Part shown: piece by piece, positions 1,750-20,413 of the stretch
Position numbering within the stretch: the first letter of the stretch is position 1
Layout: every line of letters begins with the position of its first letter
Origin: Nitrospinota bacterium
Lineage (GTDB): Bacteria > Nitrospinota > Nitrospinia > UBA9942 > JAHJSF01
Assembly: GCA_018830405.1 (NCBI GenBank)
Contig: JAHJSF010000174.1
Coordinates: forward strand, 1 to 22,066
DNA length: 22,066 nucleotides
Direction of reading: 5' to 3'
Notes under the pieces: generated by a model
Told to the model about the DNA's origin: nothing
What the model saw: only the letters and a program-made list of their open reading frames with translations
Databases searched by the model: none
Position numbers and translations under genes: made by a program

Positions 1750-4170
1750 TTATTTTACAACGATATTAACAAGTTTGTCAGGGACAACTATCTCTTTTAT
1801 TATGGTCTTCCCCTTGGTATGTTCCACCACTCGCTCATTTTTTAAGGCCGCCTCGATGAGGGCCTCCTTAGCCGTTCCTTTAGGCATCTCTTCCGTTCCC
1901 CTTACCTTCCCATTGACCGAAAAGACTATCGTGACCGATTTATCGATTACCTTGTCAGGATCAAATGTCGGCCAAGCAGCATTCAATATGGAAGGCTTAT
2001 GGCCGGTAATTTCCCATAACTCCTCCGTCATAAATGGGGCAAAGGGGTGAAGTATCTTGATAAAGTCTAAAAGGAGCCCCCTGTTTAAGACCTCTTCTTT
2101 TTGGAGAGAACTTATAAAGATCATCATCTGGCTTATGGCCGTATTAAACTCCAAGTTATCCAATTTCTCGGTAACTATCTTAATCGTTTTGTGCCGCAGC
2201 CTGTCCACCTCTTCGCTTATCGGGGCATTTTCTTTGATAGGTTTTTCGAATAACCGCCACACCTTTTCCAAAAATCTTCTTATCCCGTATATCCCCTGAA
2301 CATTCCACGGTTTGTCCACCGATAATGGGCCGAGAAACATCTCATACATACGCAGGGTATCCGCCCCATGCTCGGCGATAACATCGTCCGGGTTTATTAC
2401 ATTCCCCCTCGACTTTGACATCTTCTCCCCATTTTCCCCCAAGATCATCCCCTGATTCCTCAGCTTGATGAATGGTTCGGGTGTATCAACAACCCCTATG
2501 TCAAAAAGAACCTTGTGCCAGAAGCGGGCGTAGAGGAGGTGAAGAACGGCGTGCTCTGTCCCTCCGATGTAGAGATTAACCGCTGTCCAATAATCAATTT
2601 TATCCGGTCCGGCCAAGGCCGTATCGTTTTTAGGGTCCATAAATCGCAGGTAATACCAGCAGCTCCCTGCCCATTGGGGCATGGTATTGGTCTCTCTCTT
2701 GGCAGGGCCGCCGCATTTAGGGCAGGTGGTGTTTACCCAGCTGTCGATTGTGGCCAGGGGGGATTCTCCCGTTCCGGTCGGTTTATAGCTTTCAACCTCC
2801 GGAAGTTTGAGGGGCAATTCTTTTTCATCAATGGGCACTATGCCGCATTTTTCACAGTGAACCAACGGGAAAGGTTCTCCCCAATATCTTTGGCGGGAGA
2901 ATACCCAGTCGCGTAATTTATAATTTATGGCCCGTTTCCCTCTCCCCTCAGACTCAAGTTTGTCTATTATCTTCTTCTTAAATTCGGCCGTTGTCAGTCC
3001 GTTAAACTCCCCTGAATTTACCGCTATCCCCTCAACTGTTTCAGCAGCCTCCAGTTCGTAGGTGGAACCATCTTTGCTGACAACCTGGACAATGGGCAAC
3101 GACATCTTTTGGGCAAACTCAAAGTCACGTTCATCATGGGCCGGAACGGCCATAATTGCCCCGGTTCCGTATCCCATCAGAACATAGTCTGATATCCAGA
3201 TCGGAATCTCTTTATTGTTGACCGGGTTTATGGCGTATCCTCCGGTAAAGACTCCTGTCTTATCCTTATTCATGTCGGTCCTCTGCAGATCGGAGGCCTT
3301 GGCCGCCTTATCTATATAGGCCTTAACCTCGCCTTTTTGCTCGTTGGTCATTATCTTTTGTACGAGGGGATGTTCGGGGGACATGACCATATATGTTGCC
3401 CCGAAGAGGGTATCCGGTCTGGTGGTATATATATTCAATTTTTCGTCACAGCCTCGAATGTCGAAGACTACCTCGGCCCCCTCGCTCCTCCCGATCCAGT
3501 TCCTCTGCATCGCCTTGATTGAGTCGTCCCAATCGAGAAGGTCGAGGTCTGTAAGGAGCCTGTCGGCGTAGGCGGTTATCTTGAGCATCCACTGTCTTAT
3601 ATTTCTTCTCTCTACCTCTTTACCGCATCTATCGCAACGCCCTTCTTTGACCTCCTCATTGGCCAGTCCGGTTAGACATTCGGGACACCAGTTTATGGGG
3701 GCATTAGACTCGTAGGCCAATCCTTTTTCAAACAGCTTTAGAAATATCCACTGGGTCCATTTGTAATAGTCAGGGTCACAGGTGGCTACCTCCCTGTCCC
3801 AGTCGTAGCAGAAGCCGAATGATTTTATTTGTGTCCTGAAGGTGTCTATGTTTTTATAGGTTGTCTGAGCCGGATGTGTCCCCGTCTTTATGGCGTAATT
3901 TTCCGCCGGCAGGCCGAAGGCATCAAAACCCATCGGGTGGAGGACATTATAGCCGTTCATCCTCTTGAATCGTGTATATATATCGGTGGCGGTATAGCCT
4001 TCAGGGTGCCCTACATGAAGCCCGTTACCGGATGGGTAGGGGAACATATCAAGGACGTAGAGACGTTTTTCCCTCGGAACAGAGTTATCCTCATTTACAG
4101 AGAAGGTCTTTTCCCTGTCCCAATAGGCTATCCATTTGTTCTCTACTTCTTCGTGGTTGTAATCTTTCAC
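1750..4170 (-). CDS. leuS: Leucyl-tRNA synthetase
   Basis: Charges tRNA-Leu with leucine. From a GTG at 4170 the protein is 806 residues, normal for bacterial LeuRS. The class I HIGH motif is H-V-G-H at about residues 52-55 ([16 protein letters not shown]). A zinc-knuckle-like C-P-E-C ... C-D-R-C follows. The CP1 editing domain shows [16 protein letters not shown] and [15 protein letters not shown]. The KMSKS motif is at about 583-587, and the anticodon-binding and C-terminal domains complete it. The frame stays open upstream to an ATG at 4206, but that extension runs into the palindromic repeat at 4202-4291. The GTG has AGAGGAG placed 5 bases ahead, so I prefer it. A consensus-like promoter lies at 4322-4351. 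No T-box elements are visible in the leader. Confidence 0.97.
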
Positions 4171-4187
4171 CCAAGCTCCTCTTCTTT
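4171..4187 (-). promoter_or_regulatory. Ribosome binding site that fixes the leuS start at GTG 4170
   Basis: On the minus strand AGAGGAG is followed by CTTGG and then GTG. This is the best Shine-Dalgarno in the region. It places the start inside the longer open frame and excludes the 12-residue extension encoded partly by the palindromic repeat. Confidence 0.7.
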
Positions 4188-4201
4188 CGTTTCCGCATTC
4201 C

Positions 4202-4291
4202 GTCATTCCCGCCCCGTATCAGGTACGGGGTAAACTCCAGTGGGAATCCAGAAAAAACAAGGACTGGATTCCGCATCAAGTGCGGAATGAC
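4202..4291. repeat. REP/BIME-like palindromic repeat in the leuS leader
   Basis: A 90-base element with nested symmetry. The outer ends GTCATTCC (4202-4209) and GGAATGAC (4284-4291) are complementary, as are GGAATCCAG (4243-4251) and CTGGATTCC (4264-4272). Each half also has its own hairpin: CCCCGTA-TCAGG-TACGGGG (4212-4230) and CCGCA-TCAAG-TGCGG (4271-4285), with nearly the same loop. The ends (GTCATTCC, GGAATCCAG) are of the kind commonly seen in dispersed intergenic repeats. It lies wholly between the putative leuS promoter and start codon, so it would be transcribed as structured leader RNA. Confidence 0.7.
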
Positions 4292-9388: not shown

Positions 9389-11077
9389 ATGCCAAGTAAT
9401 AAGATTAGGGTTTTATCAGGAGGGAGAGTCCTCGAATTAGAGAGGATTGCTTCTCTTATGGAACATTTCCCGGATATAAAATATAGGGTAAAATATGTTT
9501 GCCTAGACAATGATAGGGGCAATCTTGCCCCCTCCGCGGAAGAAAAATTTACCAAATTGAAAGAACCCCTGTTGAATAAACAGGCTGATATATTTATATC
9601 CCCCGCCAAAGATGTCCCATATCCCTTACCGATAGGTTTAGATGTAATCGCTTTCTTTAATGATTCCGAAAAGAGCAGTTCTCCGGCGAGAAAAATTAAA
9701 GGGTTCGCCAGAATTTTTGCCGACCCAATGGAGGAGTCTCTGGTTCTGGTTTCAAGGTGGGACAGGGCTGACCTGAAGGTGCTTTTCAGCGGAATAGATA
9801 TCCGTAGCGGTTATGGGAAGGTCTACCTGATTGGGGCCGGAGCCGGACGACAGGAACTCCTAACCATAGAGGCCGACAAGATTTTAAAAAGGGCAGATAT
9901 AATCTACTACGATAATTTGCTTGATAAGAGAATGCTCGATAATTATCAATGCAGAAAAAAATATGTGGGGAAAAGAAAAGGGAAACACTCCATTGCTCAA
10001 GAGCAGATCAACGAAATGCTCTACAAGGAGGTGTTAAAAGGCTCTATTGTTGTCCACCTGAAGGGGGGAGACCCCTTTATATTCGGAAGGGTGGGGGAAG
10101 AGATTAAATACTTACAGGAAAGACTGGTCGCGGTTGAGGTTATTCCGGGGGCGAGTTCCGCTTCTGTGGCCGCCAGCTCAACCAATATCCCCCTAACCAT
10201 GAGGGGGGTCAGCAACAAACTTAAGTTCCTGTCAGGACATAGTTTGACCAGGGATGAGGAGACGAAGGTTTACTTTATGGGGGCCACTAAATTAAAAGAT
10301 ATAAAAGAGGGACTAATTAAGAGTAATCATTTAGAAACACCTGTTGCCTTGGTGGAGAATGCGGGGGAGGCGAATGAAAGGGTAATTATAACCAATCTTG
10401 ACGGATTGGATAAGGCTAAAGTTAATTCTCCGGCCATTATTATAATAGGCAAGGTTGTCGGTCAATTTCAGAGGCAAAAGAGGTTTTTATTTACCGGCCT
10501 GGACCCCGGCAATGTAAGGGTGCAGGGGAGAATAGTTCATTATCCACTAATAAAAACCGAGCCGGTTGATTTTAAGGTTAGTTATATTAATAGTTATGGG
10601 GGGATAATATTTACAAGTAAAATGGGGGTTAAATCCTTCTGCAGTCGTTATCGGGTAGGTACGGAGCAGAAGATTGTGGCCATAGGGCCTCACACCAAAA
10701 GAGAATTGGAGGAACTTGGGTATAAGGTTGATTATATCCCCGAAGTCTCAGATTCGGACGAGCTGGCCAGGTTGATAAAGGGATTAAAGATAAAAAACTT
10801 CTTATATCCATCCTCGGATATTTCTGACAATAAGTTGCATGCCCTTAAAAATGTTACGAGGGTCATTACCTATAGAACAGAGGCTATCCGACAGCCCAAA
10901 TTAAACTTACAGGATTATGATGGGGTGATATTCTCTTCCCCCTCGACCGTAGATTCCTTCTTCAAGATTTACAATCGCCTATCTAAGCACCTCGTTATCT
11001 ATGTCTACGGAAAAACCACAGCCGAAAAATTAAAAGGGAAGGGGTATGAAAAGACTGTTCAAAATATTAAGGTATAA
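9389..11077 (+). CDS. cobA-hemD: Fused truncated HemC-like domain / CobA uroporphyrinogen-III methyltransferase / HemD uroporphyrinogen-III synthase
   Basis: 562 residues that supply the first steps from hydroxymethylbilane to siroheme. Residues about 365-562 fit HemD (ring closure to uroporphyrinogen III), with GGIIFTSKMGVKSF and VIFSSPSTVDSFF. Residues about 143-357 are CobA/SUMT, with GKVYLIGAGAGRQELLT, the SAM-site LKGGDPFIFGR and VIPGASSASVAASS. CobA methylates uroporphyrinogen III to precorrin-2. Residues about 5-100 resemble the first domain of porphobilinogen deaminase: IRVLSGGRVLELERI ... FTKLKEPLLNKQADIFI ... AKDVPYPLPIGLDVIAFF, with the K-D pair at 74-75 where HemC has its catalytic Asp. 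The later HemC domains and the cofactor Cys are missing, so this part cannot be a complete deaminase. Its stop faces that of precorrin-2 dehydrogenase 15 bases away. Confidence 0.88.
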   Translation: MPSNKIRVLSGGRVLELERIASLMEHFPDIKYRVKYVCLDNDRGNLAPSAEEKFTKLKEPLLNKQADIFISPAKDVPYPLPIGLDVIAFFNDSEKSSSPARKIKGFARIFADPMEESLVLVSRWDRADLKVLFSGIDIRSGYGKVYLIGAGAGRQELLTIEADKILKRADIIYYDNLLDKRMLDNYQCRKKYVGKRKGKHSIAQEQINEMLYKEVLKGSIVVHLKGGDPFIFGRVGEEIKYLQERLVAVEVIPGASSASVAASSTNIPLTMRGVSNKLKFLSGHSLTRDEETKVYFMGATKLKDIKEGLIKSNHLETPVALVENAGEANERVIITNLDGLDKAKVNSPAIIIIGKVVGQFQRQKRFLFTGLDPGNVRVQGRIVHYPLIKTEPVDFKVSYINSYGGIIFTSKMGVKSFCSRYRVGTEQKIVAIGPHTKRELEELGYKVDYIPEVSDSDELARLIKGLKIKNFLYPSSDISDNKLHALKNVTRVITYRTEAIRQPKLNLQDYDGVIFSSPSTVDSFFKIYNRLSKHLVIYVYGKTTAEKLKGKGYEKTVQNIKV

Positions 11078-11104
11078 GAGAGGACTAATCCCTTACTCTT
11101 TTTT
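11076..11104 (+). terminator. Possible weak terminator between convergent genes
   Basis: AAGAG-A-GGA-CTAA-TCC-CTTA-CTCTT followed by TTTT can form an interrupted stem with a T-run for the rightward transcript. It overlaps the last codons of the leftward gene. The internal asymmetry makes it weak. Confidence 0.3.
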
Positions 11105-11530
11105 AAATATCTCCTTTATCCTGTCCCTCCATCTGATCGCCTTGAGGGTGTTTTTGCCGTTTGAACTTACCGCGACCACCATTTCCTTATCTGTATAGAG
11201 AGCCGGTGATATAAAATCACAAAGCCTTCTATTGTCTACCACGTTCACCAGCAGGCCGAGCTTGTTGGCCTCCCTCTTTATTTGTTGGTTCAGTTCTTTG
11301 TTGTCGGTGCATACATATACAAGAAAATGGCCATCTAAGAATGAGGAATTGTAGTCTTTCTCATAATATTCGCCAACCATACCTTTTATTTCCGTGTCTA
11401 TTATCGTTCCGACTACGGTAATGTTCTCGGTAAATTGTTTCAATGTCTTCACCTTGCGCAGGGCAACATCTCCCCCCCCCACCACCAATATCTTTTTATT
11501 TTTTAGGTTGAGAAGGATGGGCAAATACAT
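11093..11530 (-). CDS. Precorrin-2 dehydrogenase (possible sirohydrochlorin ferrochelatase), siroheme synthesis
   Basis: 145 residues, homologous in pattern to the N-terminal part of CysG and to Met8/SirC. After MYLPILLNLKNKKILVVGGGDVALRKVKTL, the Rossmann NAD-binding loop is GGGDVALRK. Later come the YVCTDNKELN segment and NVVDNRRLCDFISPALY, the conserved region holding the catalytic Asp. It oxidises precorrin-2 to sirohydrochlorin; in Met8 and CysG the same domain also inserts iron, but at 145 residues the helical dimerisation domain is short, so iron insertion is uncertain. It is the last gene of the sulfur run, 11 bases after cysN, and fits a role in feeding siroheme to the sulfite reductase upstream. 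It is SirC/CysG-N-like, so I leave the symbol blank. Confidence 0.88.
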   Translation of the reverse strand: MYLPILLNLKNKKILVVGGGDVALRKVKTLKQFTENITVVGTIIDTEIKGMVGEYYEKDYNSSFLDGHFLVYVCTDNKELNQQIKREANKLGLLVNVVDNRRLCDFISPALYTDKEMVVAVSSNGKNTLKAIRWRDRIKEIFKKE

Positions 11531-11541
11531 GGGTAACCTTG

Positions 11542-13338
11542 TCAGATATAATATTCCAGAATTATCGATTTTTCCTTTAAGAGTTGATAGACCTTATCTG
11601 TGGCTCCATCTATATCTTCATCTTTGTCTAAAATTAGATTAATGCTGGATTGGCTCAAATTATTTTCTCCAACGTTTATGACCAGAATCTCATTCGGTTC
11701 GTTCAGCATTTTCAGAATTTGCAGGTCATATTCATCGGCATTATCAATGGTTGTTATAAATATTTGTCCTGAATCGGTCATTATGCGGGCCAATTCTCCC
11801 AGCCTTCTGATATGTTCGTCATAGGCGCTATCCTTGTCCAATATGTCTGCCTCTAGGCCAAGTCTAACGTTGCTTGTTCCCAGATAATAGGCCTTGAACT
11901 TTTCTTTAAATAGTTTTTGTTCAAGGGCCTTGGCAATCTTCCTTTTTCCGACATGATTTGCCCCGGTGAAAACTATGAATTTTGACTTGTGGTTATAGGC
12001 AACCGTTCTGTCTTCCTGCGATATCGAGCCCTTCTCCCAAATATCCTCTCTCTTTTCGACATGTTTCTCCAGGCTGCCAAATCCTTCCGCCAGATCCTCC
12101 AGAATAATCCCCCCACCGGCTATCTCATAATTATCTATAATTACAAACCGGCTTGTCCTCTCCGATTTCCCGACCAGGTCAAAGGCAATCGGTTTGACTG
12201 TTTCAAAAACCGCTTCCGCCACATCGTGCCGATCTATCTGCCCTTTGCTTTTATCGGATGTAAGATCGGTTGCGTCTATAACATTTATTATTTCCGCCAG
12301 TCTTAAAGATGCCTTGGCGGTGGTTAGTTTTAATTTATAATTTTTATTTTTTATCATCGGGGCCTTCCCGACCCAGAATATGTTGGCCTTGAATCTATTG
12401 CTGACACAAGGGGGAGGGTCTTTTTCCCCTGTCATAATTTCCCCCGGCTTTACATATATCTGAGTAGTCAGGGTAAAACCGGTGGCAGCACCGGCGGAGG
12501 CCGTTGTCTTCTGATCTGTATTAAAAGATTCGATTGATTTTATCCCTGTCTTCTTTTTAGACGGCCAGAAGACAACATCGTCACCCACCTTGATTGTTCC
12601 CGTCTCAATAGTTCCGGCCACTATTCGCCGGTCATCGTTTCCTCCGGTAAACTTGTAGATATCCTGGACCGGAATTCTTAGGGGGAGTTTTTCAAGGGTC
12701 GGTGTTTTTGCAAATTGATCGACCTGCTCCAATGTTGTAACGCCCGAATACCAAGGCATCTTTTCTGAATCGGCCACAATGTTATCCCCCTCTTTGGCGC
12801 TTATGGGGATAAAACTAATAGGTTTTACATTAATGTTGGCCAGAAATTCCGAATATTCAGATTTGATCTTCTCAAAGACATCTTTATCGTAATCAACCAA
12901 ATCCATTTTGTTGACCAAGACGGCAACCTGTTTAATCCCTATCATGGAAATAAGGTAACCATGTCTTTTGGAGTTTTCCTGAATCCCCTCGGCGGCATCT
13001 ATAACCAGCAGAGCGGCCTCGGCGTGGGCCGCTCCCGTTATCATATTCTTCAGAAACTCGATATGCCCTGGGGCATCGAGGACGATATAGTCCCGCTTTT
13101 TTGTCTTAAAGAAAGAGCGCGCTATGTCTATGGTAATCCCTTGGGCTTGTTCATCCTTCAGGGCGTCAAGGAGGAAGGCATACTCAAAGGGCTTGGCATT
13201 TTTTAGGCACATTTGCCTTACCTGTTCCAGTTTCCCCTCGGGGAGGGAACCGGTATCGGCCAAAAGCCTCCCCATGACGGTGCTTTTGCCGTGATCCACA
13301 TGCCCAACGATAACTATCCTAAATTGCTCTCTGGCCAT
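11542..13338 (-). CDS. cysN: Sulfate adenylyltransferase subunit 1 (CysN GTPase) with degenerate C-terminal APS-kinase-like domain
   Basis: GTPase subunit that drives ATP sulfurylase (sulfate + ATP -> APS), 598 residues. Residues 1-410 are EF-Tu-like: P-loop GHVDHGKST at 12-20, switch region GITIDIA, DAPGH, NKMD, then beta-barrel domains. Residues about 450-598 align with APS kinase (CysC), but its key positions are altered. The P-loop is GANHVGKR (459-466), with Arg where Ser/Thr should bind Mg-ATP. The usual D-G-D-N-V-R segment reads G-T-S-N-V-R (487-492), losing the acidic residues. The kinase half is therefore probably inactive. This suits the neighbouring APS-type CysH, which needs no PAPS. 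The start codon overlaps the cysD stop (TAATG), indicating translational coupling. Confidence 0.94.
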
Positions 13339-14219
13339 TACATATACCCCTCTCTCCGCAACGTTTCAAGTCCCCCTCCATCCTCCTTATCCTGTGCCCG
13401 GCCGGCGCGCTCGGCGATATTGGCAAACTTGCCGCTCCTTAACTCTTCTATAATCTCTTTAACCGTCGTTGCCTCAGATTCTACGGGGTTGGTGCACGGA
13501 TAGCAGCCGAGAGAGCGGTAACGTTTTCCCTCCCCCCGATCGAAATAGAGGGGAACTATCGGAATTTTTTCCCGTTCTATATACTCCCAGATATTTAATT
13601 CTGTCCAGTCAAGGAGCGGATGTACCCGCACGTGCGTTCCCGGGGCGAAATCTGTTTTATACTGATCCCAGAATTCAGGGGGCTGATCCCCCACATCCCA
13701 CTCATTCTCCTTGTCGCGTGGGGAGAAATAACGTTCCTTAGAGCGGCTCCCCTCCTCATCGGCCCTCACCCCCACTATTACGCCGGTGTAGGGTTCCCTG
13801 TTATTATCCAGATGATATCTTTTTTCCTTATGGTCCATCCTGTAGCGGGGCCATTCACCGGATAGGGTATGTTTTAGGGCCTCACTCTTTAGATTGCGGC
13901 AGCAGGATATCCTGTCGACATTCCCATCCGGAAATGTTTGTTTGTTCCTGATTGCCTCACTGTTTTCTCCATAGATCATATTGAGTCCCCAATCAAGGGC
14001 CAACCGATCCCTGTATTGAATCATCTCAGGTATCTTGTAGTGGGTGTCTATATGAACCAGAGGAATGGGGACGTGGCCGAAAAAGGCCTTTCTGGCCAGC
14101 CATAGTAAGACGGTGCTGTCTTTGCCAACAGACCAGAGCATGCAGAGGCTTTTGAATTCACGATATGCCTCCCTCAATATATAAACGCTTTTTGCTTCAA
14201 GTATATCCAGATGATCCAT
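13338..14219 (-). CDS. cysD: Sulfate adenylyltransferase subunit 2
   Basis: Catalytic subunit of ATP sulfurylase; partners with CysN to form APS. The 293 residues match the usual length of about 300. The PP-loop of the PAPS-reductase/ATP-pyrophosphatase superfamily is [10 protein letters not shown] at about 30-39. Also visible are [27 protein letters not shown], the [11 protein letters not shown] segment and [13 protein letters not shown] near the C-terminus. It lies 21 bases after cysH, overlaps cysN by one base, and is part of the 12-gene run. Confidence 0.97.
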
Positions 14220-14240: not shown

Positions 14241-14972
14241 TTATTTGGAAGATGTTTCCTGCTTATCTATATGCAGACCGCATTCTTTATGCTCCGAACT
14301 TTCCCACCACCATCGGCCGGAACGGATGTCGTCTCCGGGGGAAACCCCCCTGGTACAGCAGGCACATCCGATGCTTGGATAGCCCTTGTCATGCAGGCTA
14401 TTGTAGGGGAGATTATTTTCCCTGATATAATCCCAGACATCTTTTTCACCCCATTCGGCCAGAGGATTTACCTTGACCAGATTAAATTTATTGTCCCATT
14501 CAATCTTTTCTAACCTGTTCCTTGTCGCGGCCTGTTCTCTCCGCAGTCCGCAAAACCATCCCTGCAACGAGGACAACTTTCTTTGCAGCGGTTCTACCTT
14601 CCTGACGCGGCAGCAAAGCATTCTATTCTCAACCGACTCATAAAATAGGTTTACCCCGTATTTATTAATCATATTCTCGACATCTCTTCTCTCAGGGAAT
14701 AATATTTCCAATCTCCTGCTATAATGCCGGCTGTTTTTTTCGATAAGGTCATATGTTTCTTGAGGAAGTCTGCCGGTATCCAGAGTGAAAATATTCATAT
14801 CCGGGGTAATCTTCATAATCATATCCGTCAATACCTGGTCTTCCGCTCCCAGGCTTGAGGCCAAGGCGACATTCTCCACGCCGAGCAGGTCTATGGCCCA
14901 AGATATGACCTCTTGCGGAGTTTTGGCAGATAGAATGGTCTGGTATTCCTTTATTTGTTCTTTGCTTAACAT
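14241..14972 (-). CDS. cysH: Assimilatory APS reductase (Fe-S type CysH)
   Basis: Reduces adenylyl sulfate to sulfite plus AMP. The 243 residues include the PP-loop-like SSLGAEDQVLTD (about 39-50) and the TGRLPQET segment. The four cysteines that bind a [4Fe-4S] cluster in APS reductases are present: C120-C121 in MLCCRVRKVEPL, and C203 and C206 in SIGCACC. The C-terminal KECGLH carries the catalytic Cys (C231), and SGRWWWE is also conserved. PAPS-specific reductases lack the CC...CxxC cluster ligands, so this is the APS-using form, requiring an electron donor such as thioredoxin. It sits between DUF2061 (8 bases) and cysD (21 bases). Confidence 0.95.
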   Translation of the reverse strand: MLSKEQIKEYQTILSAKTPQEVISWAIDLLGVENVALASSLGAEDQVLTDMIMKITPDMNIFTLDTGRLPQETYDLIEKNSRHYSRRLEILFPERRDVENMINKYGVNLFYESVENRMLCCRVRKVEPLQRKLSSLQGWFCGLRREQAATRNRLEKIEWDNKFNLVKVNPLAEWGEKDVWDYIRENNLPYNSLHDKGYPSIGCACCTRGVSPGDDIRSGRWWWESSEHKECGLHIDKQETSSK

Positions 14973-14980
14973 AATTTTAT

Positions 14981-15211
14981 CTAAATATTGTATTCAGGTG
15001 GTTTGGCCTTCTCCCGCCCAAAGGATATCTTGTTCCAGGCGCGCTCATGCAGAAAGTAGATGATAAACTTTGAAAAAAATTCAAATCCCCCTATCGATAA
15101 GGCTATCCTAACCTCATTAGTTACAAGCCAAGAAATCATGACTGTAGCCATTGTCCCTGCTATCCTCCAAGATAGGGCTTTGACTATACTTCTTTTAGCA
15201 TGTTCGACCAT
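14981..15211 (-). CDS. DUF2061 small membrane protein
   Basis: 76 residues with two probable membrane helices: about 13-32 (SWRIAGTMATVMISWLVT) and about 36-55 (IALSIGGFEFFSKFIIYFLHERAW). The pattern KALSWRIAGT ... FLHERAWNKI is the DUF2061 signature. From family knowledge, such proteins are often found beside sulfate-activation genes and have no established biochemical role. The gene is 2 bases after tusA and 8 bases before cysH, clearly within the sulfur run, so a role in assimilation at the membrane is possible. Its product would lie in the inner membrane. Confidence 0.85.
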   Translation of the reverse strand: MVEHAKRSIVKALSWRIAGTMATVMISWLVTNEVRIALSIGGFEFFSKFIIYFLHERAWNKISFGREKAKPPEYNI

Positions 15212-15213
15212 TG

Positions 15214-15447
15214 TTATCCCTTTTTAATAATTACCTTGAAGGTTTCCCCAAGGTTTTCTACGTTAATTACCTGATGCCCCTCATCCTTTAAGCTGCGGGG
15301 GACATTCAAAATTGCCTCCCCCTCATCGAGCAATACCTCTAACAACTCTCCCTGTTGAAGTTCTGCCAAGGCAGCCTTGGTCTTAACAAAGTTCATAGGG
15401 CAGCTTATGTTATGCAGATTTATCGATTTTTTTATATCAAGGCCCAT
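15214..15447 (-). CDS. TusA/SirA-family sulfur carrier
   Basis: 77 residues with the two-layer alpha/beta TusA pattern. The signature near the N-terminus is LHNISCPMNFVKTKAALAEL, with the putative persulfide Cys at residue 16 followed by Pro. Classic TusA has CPxP; here the fourth position is Asn (CPMN), as in a subfamily near sulfite-reduction genes (my recollection, not checked). Its first codons overlap the end of the JAMM-sulfite reductase gene by 11 bases, so translation is likely coupled. In context it may pass sulfur from the reductase to the activated carrier protein. This step is inference, since bisulfide alone is reported to serve in the Wolinella pathway. Confidence 0.88.
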   Translation of the reverse strand: MGLDIKKSINLHNISCPMNFVKTKAALAELQQGELLEVLLDEGEAILNVPRSLKDEGHQVINVENLGETFKVIIKKG

Positions 15448-16708
15448 TTAATATCTCCTCTTTTACTTTATCCACGCCTATTCGATCAATCATATGGCCA
15501 AAACGTTCTTTTTTGCGCCCATTCTCTTGATAGTATCTCAACGCCCTCTCAACCAACCGATAAGACTCCTCCTTCTCTGCTAACGCTTTAAGCCTTGTGG
15601 CCAGTCTGGGAATTTTCCCCATCGTTCCCCCAATGAAGACTGTGTAACCTGTTTTGGCCCCAACCCAAGCGCTGGTGGGGCAGGAAGAGGTGCAGATGCT
15701 GCAGTAGATACATTTTTCCTCGTTTAATTTATATTGATTATCCTCTTTGGTGATTGCTTCAGTCGGGCAAACATTCAGGCATAAATCACAATTAATACAT
15801 TTATCCTCTTCCCATCTTGGGAGCATTCCCCCCATAATGCCGATATCGTTTTCAGTTGCCTTGGCGCAATTGTGAGGACAGCCTGTGACCGACAGCTTAA
15901 ACTTATGAGGGGTATCTTCTCTGAAGTAGCGGCTATCCAGCTCTTTCGCCATCTCTTTTGTATCTATGATTCCCCAGCGGCATGTTGCTTCTCCCGGGCA
16001 GGCAACCACTATCCGCACCCTTGGTCCGCAGGCCCCCATTTTTATCCCGACCTCCGCCAACTCTTTTCTGGCGATTTCCAGATATTTATTATGGACGCCA
16101 TGAATCTCTACCCCTTGTCTGGTCGATAGATGGACAAAGCCCTCCCCATATTTTTTGGCAATATCCGCAATCCTTTGCAACTGTGCAACCGTCAGATCCC
16201 CTCCAACAGTGTGGAGGCGCATGGCGAAGAACCCCTTCTGTTTTTGCTGGATCATCCCAAACTTTTTCATGGCCGCTAAATCTAATTCCAGGCCACATAT
16301 TTTTAAACCCTCGATCTCAATTTTCAGGTTTAACACCTCCCCCTTTTTGATCTTGAAGGCCTTTATCTCTTTATCCGAAAGAGAGGCTATTACGTAAACA
16401 ATATTTGGGTCATAGGCCAGCCTTATATCCTCGTTGGAAGGTCTGGCCGGAGTGGCGGGATGGGTATGATAAACCGCTAAAATATTAAGCCCCAGACTAT
16501 TTGCCTCCCTGATAACCTTAAATTGCTCTTCGGGATCAAGGGTGAAATGTTCCTCAGACCGGTCTTTGTTGTCCATCGGATAGCACCTTGTAACAATGCC
16601 ATCCTTCCCCGCCAAGTAGCCGCAGGCCTCAAGAGGGGCATCACTCTCTCCATGCTTAAATATTTGATTGACTATTTCTTGGTTTATCTTAAACATCATA
16701 TTTCTCAT
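15437..16708 (-). CDS. Fusion of JAMM metallopeptidase (HcyD/Mec-like) and siroheme sulfite reductase with two [4Fe-4S] ferredoxin motifs
   Basis: 423 residues. The N-terminal part (about 5-135) is a JAMM/MPN+ domain: E27 in PLEACGYLAG, H81 and H83 in HTHP, and S91 and D94 in PSNED, giving the complete E...HxH...S..D zinc set. In Mec and HcyD such domains cleave the C-terminal tail of a sulfur carrier or release an amino acid from it. Residues about 160-423 are a small siroheme sulfite reductase: the GGDLTVAQLQRIADIA...LSTRQGVEIHGV domain, then the siroheme-cluster ligands C237-x5-C243 and C277-x3-C281. Two ferredoxin motifs follow at C304/C307/C310/C314 and C333/C336/C339/C343. One polypeptide thus holds both the sulfide producer and the carrier-processing peptidase. 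The start is ATG 16708 with a weak ribosome site; ATGs at residues 4 and 5 are alternatives. Confidence 0.9.
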   Translation of the reverse strand: MRNMMFKINQEIVNQIFKHGESDAPLEACGYLAGKDGIVTRCYPMDNKDRSEEHFTLDPEEQFKVIREANSLGLNILAVYHTHPATPARPSNEDIRLAYDPNIVYVIASLSDKEIKAFKIKKGEVLNLKIEIEGLKICGLELDLAAMKKFGMIQQKQKGFFAMRLHTVGGDLTVAQLQRIADIAKKYGEGFVHLSTRQGVEIHGVHNKYLEIARKELAEVGIKMGACGPRVRIVVACPGEATCRWGIIDTKEMAKELDSRYFREDTPHKFKLSVTGCPHNCAKATENDIGIMGGMLPRWEEDKCINCDLCLNVCPTEAITKEDNQYKLNEEKCIYCSICTSSCPTSAWVGAKTGYTVFIGGTMGKIPRLATRLKALAEKEESYRLVERALRYYQENGRKKERFGHMIDRIGVDKVKEEILNGP

Positions 16709-16733: not shown

Positions 16734-17543
16734 TTATCTCTGTCCCTTTAAATCGCACGCCGCCTGTTCATAATCTGTTAAAGCTGTAATAGATGGTTTT
16801 TGGCCGCATACAGGGCAATTCAGATCCCTTTTTAAGGTTACATTCCTGAAAGTCATATCAAGGGCGTTAAATATTAGAAGCCTATTAACTAACAATTCTC
16901 CCTTTCCGATGAAGAACTTCAATGTCTCGGCCGCCTGTATGGTGCCGAGCATGCCGGCGATTGCCCCTAACACCCCTGCCTGCGAACAGGTAGGAACGGC
17001 ATCTTTGGGGGGAGGTTCCTTGAAAACACACCGATAACAGGCGTTGCCCGGCGTATGGGTCAAGGTTTGCCCGTCAAACCTCAATATTCCCCCGTGTGAA
17101 AAAGGTTTGCCGGCCATAACACAGGCATCGTTAATCAAAAATTTAGCGGCGAAATTGTCTGTTCCGTCTATTATAAAATCGTACCCCTTGATGAGATCGG
17201 AGATATTCTCCGCCGAGGCCAGATATTGATAGGTATTTACCTTTATATCGGGATTTATCTCTTTTATTTTCTCTTTGGCCGAGATTACTTTTGGCTTGCC
17301 TATGTCAGGGGTGAAATGGATTACCTGCCTTTGCAGATTGGTCCGATCCACCAGGTCGCCGTCAACGATTCCAATTGTTCCGACTCCTGCGGCAGCCAGA
17401 TAAAGAGCAATTGGGGCCCCCAGGCCGCCGGCCCCGATAATCAGTACCTTCCCATTTAATATCTTTTCCTGTCCCTCTATGCCGACATCTTTCAGTATGA
17501 TATGCCTACTGTATCTTTCTAACTGCTCATCGGTTAGGCTCAC
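16734..17543 (-). CDS. hcyF: ThiF/MoeB/HesA-type E1-like carrier-activating enzyme (HcyF-like)
   Basis: Adenylates the C-terminal glycine of a ubiquitin-like sulfur carrier. The 269 residues carry GAGGLG (37-42) for ATP, the DGDLVDRTNLQRQVIH segment with the conserved Arg, DGTDNFAAKFLIND, a zinc site C169-x2-C172 ... C243-x2-C246, and the crossover Cys region PTCSQAGVLG (C186). No rhodanese domain is attached. It starts with GTG, overlapping the metY stop by 4 bases (GTGA), and is followed 25 bases later by the JAMM-sulfite reductase gene. The position between a MetY-like enzyme and a JAMM protein, with a ThiS-like carrier nearby, points to the HcyF role rather than thiamine or molybdopterin synthesis. 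Confidence 0.88.
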   Translation of the reverse strand: MSLTDEQLERYSRHIILKDVGIEGQEKILNGKVLIIGAGGLGAPIALYLAAAGVGTIGIVDGDLVDRTNLQRQVIHFTPDIGKPKVISAKEKIKEINPDIKVNTYQYLASAENISDLIKGYDFIIDGTDNFAAKFLINDACVMAGKPFSHGGILRFDGQTLTHTPGNACYRCVFKEPPPKDAVPTCSQAGVLGAIAGMLGTIQAAETLKFFIGKGELLVNRLLIFNALDMTFRNVTLKRDLNCPVCGQKPSITALTDYEQAACDLKGQR

Positions 17544-18775
17544 TGTATCCCCTCCAGTCCATATTCAATATCGTTAATAAGGTCTTCAATGTCTTCTATC
17601 CCGACCGCCAATCTTATCATCGTCTCCCTTACCCCCATTTCTTCCCTTAGCTGGGGAGCATATTCACAAAATATGGTTGAAGCAGGGTGGAGGATTAAGC
17701 TCTTATTGTCGTTTAGATTGGTGGCCCGGCGTATAATCCTCAATCGATTTATAAAATTAAAGCAGGCCTCTTTGGAGCCGAGATCAAAGGTGAGCAGCCC
17801 CCCTGCCCCTTTGGGGAACTGTGCCTTGGCAACGGCATAAGAGGAGGAACTCTCCAAACCGGGATAATTAACATCCTTTATCTTTTTATTAGATTCCAGA
17901 TATCTTGCTATAGATAAGGCATTGGCACACGATCTGTCGGCCCTGATCGCCAGTGTTTCCAATCCCAGGCTTTGCAGATAGGCGCTGTTGGGGGAAAGGC
18001 AAGCCCCAAGGTTGCGGTAGGATTCACGTTTAAGCTTCTTTATCAGGCTGAAAGGGCCATATTTTTTAGCCTCTCCCTTTAGGTTCTCGTTTTTCTCCCA
18101 ATCAAATGTTCCGTTATCTATTATCAGACCCCCTACCGAAGTTGCTCCTCCGGAAATATATTTGGTGCTTGAAAGGATCTCGATATCTACCCCAAAATCC
18201 CTTGACCGGAATAGATAGGGGGGGGTGATGGTGGTATCCGCAATAGTTAATATCCCCTTCTCCTTGGCTATTTTAGATATGGCCTTTATATCCGCAACTT
18301 CCAGTTGTGGATTGGTAATCGTTTCCAAAAAAATCGCCCTGGTGTTTTTGTTGATTGATGCTTCAATCTTTTTAAGATCCGTCATGTCGGTGTATTGAGC
18401 CTCCAGCCCCCAAGGCTTGAGAGTCTTCTCAAAGAGTGAATAGGTGTTGCCGAACAGAAACTTTGTCGTTATTATGTTATCCCCACTGCCGGCGATACTT
18501 AGTATAAGGTTTGAAATCGCGGCCATTCCCGAAGAGAGGGCAACGACGGCCAAGGAGTCGGTGACATTCTTAATCTTCTGCTCAAAGTTTTCCACGGTCG
18601 GATTGGTTATCCTCGAATAGAGATGGCTTGGGATTTCCCCCAGAAAGGCCTTTTCTATCTCTTCGGCGGTTTCAAATTCATAGGCCACGCTGTTATAAAT
18701 AGGAAAATGGAGGGATCTATGGGCATCATCCTTTAAATATTTATTATGTATGGCCCGCGTTGTAAAACCCGCCAT
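17540..18775 (-). CDS. metY: PLP-dependent O-acetylhomoserine sulfhydrylase-like enzyme
   Basis: Cys/Met-metabolism PLP enzyme, 411 residues. Conserved signs are YSRITNPTVENFE, SSGMAAISN, the FLETITNPQLEVAD segment and the PLP lysine in SSTKYISGG (K205). The enzyme class joins sulfide (or a carrier thiocarboxylate) to O-acetylhomoserine to give homocysteine; a gamma-lyase or cystathionine synthase cannot be excluded by motif alone. It immediately follows the carrier gene, with TAATG overlap, and overlaps the activating-enzyme gene by 4 bases. This arrangement of carrier, PLP enzyme and E1-like protein supports the thiocarboxylate-using MetY role seen in Wolinella. Confidence 0.88.
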   Translation of the reverse strand: MAGFTTRAIHNKYLKDDAHRSLHFPIYNSVAYEFETAEEIEKAFLGEIPSHLYSRITNPTVENFEQKIKNVTDSLAVVALSSGMAAISNLILSIAGSGDNIITTKFLFGNTYSLFEKTLKPWGLEAQYTDMTDLKKIEASINKNTRAIFLETITNPQLEVADIKAISKIAKEKGILTIADTTITPPYLFRSRDFGVDIEILSSTKYISGGATSVGGLIIDNGTFDWEKNENLKGEAKKYGPFSLIKKLKRESYRNLGACLSPNSAYLQSLGLETLAIRADRSCANALSIARYLESNKKIKDVNYPGLESSSSYAVAKAQFPKGAGGLLTFDLGSKEACFNFINRLRIIRRATNLNDNKSLILHPASTIFCEYAPQLREEMGVRETMIRLAVGIEDIEDLINDIEYGLEGIQ

Positions 18776-18984
18776 TAGAAGTTACCTCCCCCTAAAAAAT
18801 ATAAGAAGTTTATTTCGTCTTGGTCCGTTAAAGATGTTGACGAAAAATTATCTCTCTTAACAAATTCTCCGTTAAGCTGAACGGAGACCATGTCCGGCAT
18901 TTCAACATTGTTTTTTGTTAACAATTCTGAAACGGTAATTTCCCCATCAAATTCCTGATATTCATTATTTACTTTGATTTTCAT
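18775..18984 (-). CDS. hcyS: ThiS/MoaD-like sulfur carrier protein with GGGNF tail (HcyS-like)
   Basis: 69 residues with a ubiquitin-like beta-grasp pattern: MKIKVNNEYQEFDGEITVSELL ... VSVQLNGEFVKRDNF ... LTDQDEINFLYFLGGG. Ordinary ThiS and MoaD end in Gly-Gly. Here the chain ends G65-G66-G67-N68-F69 before the TAA, so at least two residues must be removed to expose a glycine terminus. The Wolinella carrier HcyS also has a residue after Gly-Gly, removed by HcyD. The JAMM domain encoded three genes downstream is the obvious protease. The gene is 13 bases after cysK and overlaps metY by one base. ThiS for thiamine is the alternative, but no thi genes are present. Confidence 0.88.
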   Translation of the reverse strand: MKIKVNNEYQEFDGEITVSELLTKNNVEMPDMVSVQLNGEFVKRDNFSSTSLTDQDEINFLYFLGGGNF

Positions 18985-18997
18985 ATCATGGTTTCCT

Positions 18998-19930
18998 TTA
19001 ATCGTCCTTAAATAAACTGTTTAGGCTTAGATACCTCTCCCCTGTGTCGGGCAGGATAACGACAATCTGCTTCCCCTTGTTTTCATCCCTTTTGGCTATT
19101 TCTATGGCTCCCCTTACGGCAGCCCCTGAGGATATTCCGAGCAATAACCCCTCGTCTGTAGCCAGATTTTTGGTAGTTTCGAAGGCATCTTGATTGGAGA
19201 CCTTGATAATCTCATCAACAATATCCCTGTTCAGAACATCAGGGATAAAGCCTGCGCCTATCCCCTGAATCATATGATGACCGGGGTTCCCTCCCGATAA
19301 AACAGGGGAATCTTCCGGCTCGACCGCTATTATCTTTATCTCCCTACGCTTCGCTTTTAGGGCCTCTCCCACACCAGTTATCGTCCCTCCTGTCCCTACC
19401 CCTGAGATGAAGATATCGACCTTTCCGTCCGTATCTGACCATATCTCTTCGGCGGTTGTTTTACGGTGAATCTCAGGATTGGCCGGGTTGGAAAACTGCT
19501 GTAAGATTATTGACCCTTCAATCTCTTTATTGATCCTCTCTGCCTCCTCAATTGCCCCCCTCATCCCTTTGTCACCTTCCGTTAAAACAATCTTGGCCCC
19601 GAATATTTTCAGGAGGCTTTTTCGCTCTTTAGACATTGTTTCAGGCATAGTAAGAATCACCTTATATCCCTTAACCGCGGCAATCCAAGCCATTCCAATC
19701 CCGGTATTGCCGGATGTCGCCTCAATTATTGTTCCCCCAGGCTTTAGCACCCCTCTTTTTTCTGCATCCTCTATCATGCTGTAGGCGATCCGATCTTTGA
19801 CACTGGAGCAGGGATTAAACGATTCAAGTTTACCTATGATTTCCGCATTATATTTATTGGATAATTTGTTTAGCCTGACAAGGGGTGTTTTCCCAATCAA
19901 TTCGGTTAAATCATTTGCTATCTTTGCCAT
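18998..19930 (-). CDS. cysK: Cysteine synthase (O-acetylserine sulfhydrylase)
   Basis: Makes cysteine from O-acetylserine and sulfide, PLP-dependent. The 310 residues are typical. Visible are GKTPLVRLNKL, the PLP lysine in SSVKDR (K45), the TSGNTGIGMAW substrate loop, the GTGGTITGVG phosphate cup and a C-terminus ending DTGERYLSLNSLF. A CysM-like enzyme that uses a protein thiocarboxylate would be the main alternative given the neighbouring carrier, but the sequence looks like ordinary CysK. It is the second gene of the run, 33 bases after the Rrf2 regulator gene, suggesting autoregulated co-expression. Confidence 0.95.
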   Translation of the reverse strand: MAKIANDLTELIGKTPLVRLNKLSNKYNAEIIGKLESFNPCSSVKDRIAYSMIEDAEKRGVLKPGGTIIEATSGNTGIGMAWIAAVKGYKVILTMPETMSKERKSLLKIFGAKIVLTEGDKGMRGAIEEAERINKEIEGSIILQQFSNPANPEIHRKTTAEEIWSDTDGKVDIFISGVGTGGTITGVGEALKAKRREIKIIAVEPEDSPVLSGGNPGHHMIQGIGAGFIPDVLNRDIVDEIIKVSNQDAFETTKNLATDEGLLLGISSGAAVRGAIEIAKRDENKGKQIVVILPDTGERYLSLNSLFKDD

Positions 19931-19963: not shown

Positions 19964-20413
19964 TTATATGTGGTAGGTTATAGCGTTTTTCTTTTTAATC
20001 TTAGAGTCGTTCTCTTTTAGCTGCTCAAAGTTTATATTATCTACCATAGATGTTACCTTGCTTCCTATCTCTTGCCAGATAGGATAAAAAACGCATCTGT
20101 TTATCTCGCCGCATGTTTTTGGGGCATTTGGGTCAATGCATGATATTGGATAGGTAGTCCCTTCAATAAATCTAATTACTTCTCCCAATAAAATCTCTTT
20201 TGGGGGCTTGGCGAGAAAATATCCTCCATTTGCCCCTTTTTTGCTCTGGATGAACCCCCCTTTCTTCAGTTCCAACAAGATTTGCTCTAAGAACTTTCTG
20301 GGGATATCTTGCCTGTTGGCCATATCTTCAATATGTACCAATCTTTCAGAATAGTTGTTGGACAGGTCTAATATAACCTTTAGGGCGTAATCCCCCCTAT
20401 ATGATATTTTCAT
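19964..20413 (-). CDS. Rrf2-family transcriptional regulator (CymR/IscR-like)
   Basis: 149 residues. The N-terminal winged helix starts MKISYRGDYALKVILDLS and contains the IPRKFLEQILLELKKGGFIQSKKGANGGYFLAK recognition and wing region typical of Rrf2 proteins. Three cysteines in the C-terminal part (C92, C101, C107; spacing x8 and x5) are placed where IscR and NsrR bind an Fe-S cluster, though the first spacing is longer than in IscR. CymR-type members lack such ligands. It is the first gene of the sulfur run and lies right behind a strong promoter with an overlapping inverted repeat, so it probably controls itself and the operon, perhaps in response to cysteine or Fe-S status. The ATG has GGAG 5 bases ahead. 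Confidence 0.92.
   Translation of the reverse strand: MKISYRGDYALKVILDLSNNYSERLVHIEDMANRQDIPRKFLEQILLELKKGGFIQSKKGANGGYFLAKPPKEILLGEVIRFIEGTTYPISCIDPNAPKTCGEINRCVFYPIWQEIGSKVTSMVDNINFEQLKENDSKIKKKNAITYHI

Follow-up and report, generated by a model that had tools for sequence, protein, structure and literature searches.

One reading frame joining a JAMM peptidase to a siroheme sulfite reductase in a putative protein-thiocarboxylate operon of a Nitrospinota bacterium

Krishnamoorthy and Begley (2011) reportedly worked out the biochemistry of a protein-thiocarboxylate route to methionine in Wolinella succinogenes, built from HcyS, HcyD, HcyF, MetY and Sir. Loading of the Wolinella carrier uses bisulfide from Sir. 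In the CysO/CysM/Mec+ system of Mycobacterium tuberculosis, a JAMM enzyme frees the amino acid from a thiocarboxylate carrier. The 2011 Wolinella work is cited in PMC6225789 and PMC5764234, and the operon type considered here corresponds to neighborhood row 4e of Iyer, Burroughs and Aravind (2006; PMC1779556), who also list sulfite reductases with a C-terminal ThiS fusion in Actinobacteria (Nocardioides, Acidothermus). Those ThiS fusions are the only fusions of sulfite reductase found in the available text of PMC1779556, where no JAB-SIR fusion was found. Neither did the searchable literature yield a description of one, so that the initial annotation of this DNA, which knew of no account of this exact fusion, stands on that point.

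The stretch of DNA analyzed here (the window, 22,066 nucleotides) encodes on its minus strand, from position 20413, the order Rrf2, CysK, carrier, MetY, E1, JAMM-SIR, TusA, DUF2061, CysH, CysD, CysN and precorrin-2 dehydrogenase (SirC), with CobA-HemD on the plus strand facing this predicted sulfate-to-homocysteine operon:

19964..20413, minus: Rrf2 family regulator (PF02082)
18998..19930, minus: CysK, cysteine synthase A (TIGR01139, above cut-off)
18775..18984, minus: ThiS-like sulfur carrier of 69 aa ending LGGG-NF (TIGR01683, PF02597)
17540..18775, minus: MetY-like PLP sulfhydrylase (PF01053, E 1e-111)
16734..17543, minus: E1-like carrier adenylyltransferase of HcyF/MoeB/ThiF type, without rhodanese domain (PF00899, NCBIfam)
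15437..16708, minus: JAMM-SIR fusion gene, 423 aa, a single open frame from ATG to stop (Pfam, NCBIfam, AlphaFold)
15214..15447, minus: TusA/SirA-like protein with CPMNFVK motif (PF01206)
14981..15211, minus: DUF2061 small membrane protein (PF09834)
14241..14972, minus: CysH, APS-reductase type (TIGR02055, 265.6 bits, cut-off 235.3)
13338..14219, minus: CysD, sulfate adenylyltransferase small subunit (NF003587, above cut-off)
11542..13338, minus: CysN, with degenerate APS-kinase-like C-terminus (TIGR02034, 340 bits, cut-off 336)
11093..11530, minus: precorrin-2 dehydrogenase of CysG N-terminal type, siroheme supply (TIGR01470)
9389..11077, plus: CobA-HemD fusion, siroheme supply (PF00590, PF02602)

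Carrier, JAMM, E1, MetY and Sir, by which we recognize a Wolinella-type pathway, are encoded together in the window, and the best solved relative of its MetY is 3ri6 (E 4e-131, with the next at 4e-90, a lead of about 130 bits), which we take to be the Wolinella MetY. This agrees with the thiocarboxylate setting that the initial annotation had proposed from the letters. Despite the MetY-type enzyme, no MetX (homoserine O-acetyltransferase, TIGR01392), the expected source of O-acetylhomoserine, was found in the window's genome, which is 87% complete. The APS-kinase-like C-terminus of CysN has an apparently degenerate P-loop (GANHVGKR), as would suit a CysH of the APS type and not of the PAPS type. 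The DUF2061 membrane protein also lies between TusA and CysH in L007, L009, L010, L011 and L073/L090. Outside the operon, the window's LeuRS (1750-4206, minus) is 65-67% identical to that of two genomes labelled Spirochaetes and 45-57% identical to those of the other genomes compared; the group for the window's own phylum contains just 77 genomes.

The fusion gene is made up of the following parts:

16349..16681, minus: JAMM/Prok-JAB domain, residues 10-120 (PF14464, E 3e-23), with zinc set E27, H81, H83, S91 and D94
16271..16324, minus: junction and linker, residues 129-146, the gap region between the domains in the alignment, with the lowest pLDDT at 135-139
16049..16252, minus: SIR ferredoxin-like half domain NIR_SIR_ferr, residues 153-220 (PF03460, E 2.2e-21), bearing R164 and R197
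15452..16027, minus: SIR siroheme/4Fe-4S domain NIR_SIR, residues 228-419 (PF01077, E 8.5e-36), with C237, C243, C277, C281, K269 and K271
15668..15817, minus: inserted 2x[4Fe-4S] ferredoxin domain (Fer4), residues 298-347 (PF00037 and PF14697, motifs)

A script check of the 423-aa translation places E27, H81, H83, S91 and D94, and the siroheme/4Fe-4S ligands C237/C243 (Cx5C) and C277/C281 (Cx3C), exactly where the first reading of one frame with a JAMM zinc set, siroheme ligands and two ferredoxin motifs had put them, and locates two CxxCxxCxxxCP motifs in the SIR half at 304-314 and 333-343. By motif, R164, R197, K269 and K271 match the sulfite-binding Arg/Arg/Lys/Lys set of SiR, and the catalytic and ligand residues are kept in the aligned relatives. 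The N-terminal half has the E, HxH, S and D set in a JAMM fold, and the C-terminal half the ligands and Arg/Arg/Lys/Lys set of a small Fsr/AsrC-like siroheme SIR. Each half is a full-length domain (E 1e-21 or better), and the architecture is not a product of chance. Judged by sequence, both predicted activities look intact, with the 2x[4Fe-4S] insert as the likely electron entry; the homologous start of the gene may be M5 rather than M1. A plus-strand reading of 15437-16708, for which the initial annotation named no strand, is ruled out by stops throughout, and the SIR half, at 152 bits against an NCBIfam cut-off of 324 for TIGR02912, is related to AsrC but is not AsrC. Neither a second Prok-JAB nor another full SIR match was found in the window's genome (87% complete).

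AlphaFold predicts two well-formed domains (mean pLDDT 92.6). Because pLDDT falls below 50 at linker residues 135-139 and pTM is 0.69, the model gives no confident orientation of JAMM relative to SIR; the protein would consist of two loosely tethered domains, each well folded, and the model lends no support to the channelling of sulfide onto the carrier that the initial annotation had suggested. Among solved folds (Foldseek, VIA-align), the SIR half comes closest to the SIR portion of Fsr (7np8; Z 30.4, rmsd 2.5 across 277 residues), and the best relatives of the JAMM half are 2kks and P. furiosus JAMM1 (5lda; Z 20.5, rmsd 1.6).

The check for proteins combining JAMM with NIR_SIR, which the initial annotation had suggested, returned joined frames in two loci besides the window (L007 and L082), that is, in 3/12 of the loci having both. 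L007, labelled Planctomycetota, encodes a protein of 427 aa that is 65% identical to the window's and has the same architecture; its linker is Pro-rich and lacks both an ATG and a Shine-Dalgarno from which SIR could be started separately, so that this is a clean fusion. The second frame (L082:1480-2898:+, also seen as L096:7372-8790; 472 aa) lies in the same kind of operon and joins JAMM to SIR of another clade (the SIR parts are 35% identical); its source, G891, comes from the same phylum as a genome labelled Spirochaetes. L082 keeps, in frame, an AAGGAG site and an ATGATG at which SIR could start, so that free SIR may also be made, and single-base changes would split the frame; because of this internal ribosome site we do not count L082 as a strong third case. 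In the L082 SIR, the first cysteine motif for siroheme is CxxxC (ACAGC) rather than Cx5C, as it is in the related SIRs of L066 and L069 (ACGGC). No further JAMM-SIR fusion was found in samples, non-exhaustive, of about 1,680 genomes from seven phyla, none elsewhere among the 77 genomes of the window's own phylum, and no relative among viral contigs.

JAMM and SIR are separate, in the same order, in nine loci (L008, L009, L010, L013, L073/L090, L077/L091, L078/L092, L079/L094 and L080/L093), in line with the expectation that HcyD-like and Sir-like genes are normally distinct neighbors; labels in these records include Syntrophus, Elusimicrobiota and Spirochaetales. The two genes overlap by 4 bases in L009 and, by longest frame, in L073, and by 14 bases in L078-L080; L008, L010 and L013 have 1-8 bases between them, and L077 has 842. 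They are always in different frames (9/9), and fusion therefore requires loss of a stop plus an indel.

The best SIR tree implies three gains of the fused state, with L007 grouping with split Elusimicrobiota genes (97/93). For SIR alone, the AU test does not reject that the fusions in the window and in L007 go back to one event (p = 0.127); concatenations of eight genes (p = 0.011) and of the five carrier-pathway genes (p = 0.021) do reject it. The two fusions are thus likely, though not certainly, independent, with the odd amino-acid make-up of L007 and possible horizontal transfer of the operon as caveats. SIR of the window's clade is in addition fused C-terminally to TusA in 5/5 Nitrospirota genomes with a match (L085-L089, L039), with no JAMM, carrier or E1 gene adjoining in the stretches examined. 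Across lineages SIR is joined to three sulfur-relay partners (JAMM, TusA and ThiS), a pattern that is suggestive of cooperation rather than a demonstration of channelling.

All nine carriers from JAMM-containing operons (the window and eight relatives) have a tail beyond GGG: GGG-NF in the window, GGG-R in L007 and L090, GGG-SQK in L008, GGG-SLI in L009, GGG-TY in L013, GGG-SVQ in L096, GGG-ADDERIYH in L092 and GGG-ADDERLCH in L093. Such a tail, variable in letters and constant in presence, is as expected if JAMM removes it, and lends this role indirect support. Three ThiS-like carriers in Chlorobiaceae loci terminate exactly at GGG; since these are probably thiamine carriers, the contrast is indirect support only.

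We propose, with a probability of about 0.72, that JAMM-SIR combines HcyD and Sir in one bifunctional enzyme, working in a protein-thiocarboxylate pathway that leads from sulfate to homocysteine and methionine. CysDN would activate sulfate and CysH reduce it to sulfite, which the SIR half (siroheme plus 4Fe-4S), receiving electrons via its own two ferredoxin clusters, would reduce to sulfide. The JAMM half would remove the residues after Gly-Gly-Gly (or Gly-Gly) of the ThiS-like carrier, E1 would adenylate the exposed glycine, and sulfide, directly or via TusA, would convert it to the thiocarboxylate. MetY would then pass the thiocarboxylate to activated homoserine, and JAMM would free homocysteine and regenerate the carrier. 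We infer this order of reactions from Wolinella biochemistry. The fusion itself would have arisen by loss of the boundary between adjacent, usually overlapping genes, giving one tethered enzyme. In support of the HcyD-Sir reading are the full-length domains with their catalytic sets, the complete operon with siroheme supply, the conserved tails and the recurrence of the fusion; we count against it the lack of MetX in the 87% complete genome, a junction one base from the split state, and the CysK neighbor, which would allow cysteine as a product.

Whether the join matters for function is a matter on which we are evenly divided: the fusion may well be real and yet functionally neutral, doing no more than keep equal the amounts of two enzymes whose translation was coupled already, and channelling nothing. 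Split relatives that already overlap or abut, a model with no confident fixed orientation of the domains (pTM 0.69) and a sporadic distribution (3/12 loci) all fit such neutrality. However, the fusion recurs across distinct lineages, in one case with SIR of another clade, and the same SIR is fused to TusA in every Nitrospirota match (5/5), both of which suggest a pull linking SIR to the sulfur relay.

That relay raises another, unlikely, possibility, namely that SIR passes sulfur to TusA instead of releasing free sulfide, with TusA acting much as DsrC does for DsrAB and the carrier being loaded from TusA. In almost every locus with a JAMM gene, TusA comes next after SIR, SIR-TusA fusions occur in five Nitrospirota genomes, and by structure comparison the SIR of this clade is a fold relative of DsrAB. 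Several Chlorobiaceae loci, however, have SIR with no adjacent TusA, and carrier loading in Wolinella uses bisulfide from Sir. Docking of SIR on TusA is likewise not predicted with confidence in the model of the natural fusion L089 (mean pLDDT 79.9, pTM 0.63).

Less probable again is a cysteine product, in which CysK or MetY would make carrier-cysteine and JAMM would free Cys, as in CysO/CysM/Mec+. In the window and in L007, the gene just upstream of the carrier is indeed CysK, and the missing MetX (87% complete genome) would be consistent with this, but MetY comes directly after the carrier in all carrier-containing loci examined, CysK is absent or more distant in several, and the nearest solved structure to MetY is 3ri6, all of which favor homocysteine.

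With respect to the junction, which in the window reads GAGGGTTTAAAAATATGTGGCCTGGAATTAGATTTAGCGGCCATG, one further feature has to be considered, identified by a one-base deletion scan and by matching split arrangements in relatives:

16296..16312, minus: relic Shine-Dalgarno (GAGGG) and ATG (16298), now out of frame

Any one-base deletion at gene positions 413-431 gives an overlapping pair, a JAMM of 141-146 aa and a SIR from this ATG, which then stands at a normal distance behind GAGGG with an N-terminus spaced like those of the relatives; the site is probably the ancestral SIR start. With the junction one base from a split arrangement, the fusion is either young or a one-base error, and we consider a young fusion the better account and an assembly error the less likely one. 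No frameshift is apparent in the other 16 window genes (zero events in about 16 kb). If errors are uniform, this limits their rate to about 2e-4 per base, and the chance of an artefact in the junction stretch to no more than about 0.3%; the latter figure is raised to about 10% overall because errors may be clustered or homopolymer-linked. An assembly or sequencing error joining two overlapping genes is accordingly improbable: the exact pair restored by one deletion, the different frames of JAMM and SIR in 9/9 mostly overlapping or abutting split loci, and a linker codon usage that favors neither frame would suit it, but the intact neighbors, the clean version of the same join in L007 (Pro-rich linker, no ATG or ribosome site) and the fact that a genuine young fusion would look identical speak against it. 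The frameshift that the initial annotation had named among the grounds for refuting its reading thus keeps a small probability, given the one-base distance from the split state, although the rest of the window and L007 speak against it.

Going beyond the HcyD-Sir reading, SIR might be a channelling enzyme that hands its sulfur product on to a protein (TusA, the adenylated carrier or both) instead of letting it go as free sulfide, selection for which would have brought about its fusions, those with JAMM in separate lineages as well as those with TusA in Nitrospirota and with ThiS in Actinobacteria; we regard this as doubtful and put it forward as a speculation. On the question of free assimilatory sulfide versus hand-over from sulfite reductase to carrier, the JAMM-SIR and SIR-TusA fusions are natural constructs for testing, and the window's junction illustrates how a coupled gene pair can become a single protein through a one-base step.

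With the Wolinella pathway the window shares a tailed carrier, JAMM, E1, MetY and Sir clustered with sulfate-reduction genes; HcyD and Sir are separate there, whereas in the window and in L007 they form one polypeptide, and the window's operon also holds TusA and DUF2061, which are not known to belong to the Wolinella set. Fsr (7np8, 7npa) has a SIR half with an inserted 2x[4Fe-4S] domain like that of the window (28-32% identity, Z of about 30), but it is fused to an F420H2 oxidase, and the window's SIR to a peptidase. P. furiosus JAMM1 (5ld9, and 5lda with SAMP2) and Desulfitobacterium DSY2949 (2kks) share the fold of the window's JAMM half, at rmsd 1.6-2.1, as well as its catalytic set, and are stand-alone proteins, unlike the fusion, while the M. 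tuberculosis CysO/CysM/Mec+ system is a cysteine pathway with no fused sulfite reductase. The pathway itself is already known, and the joining of JAMM to SIR is a recurrent and apparently undescribed variant of it.
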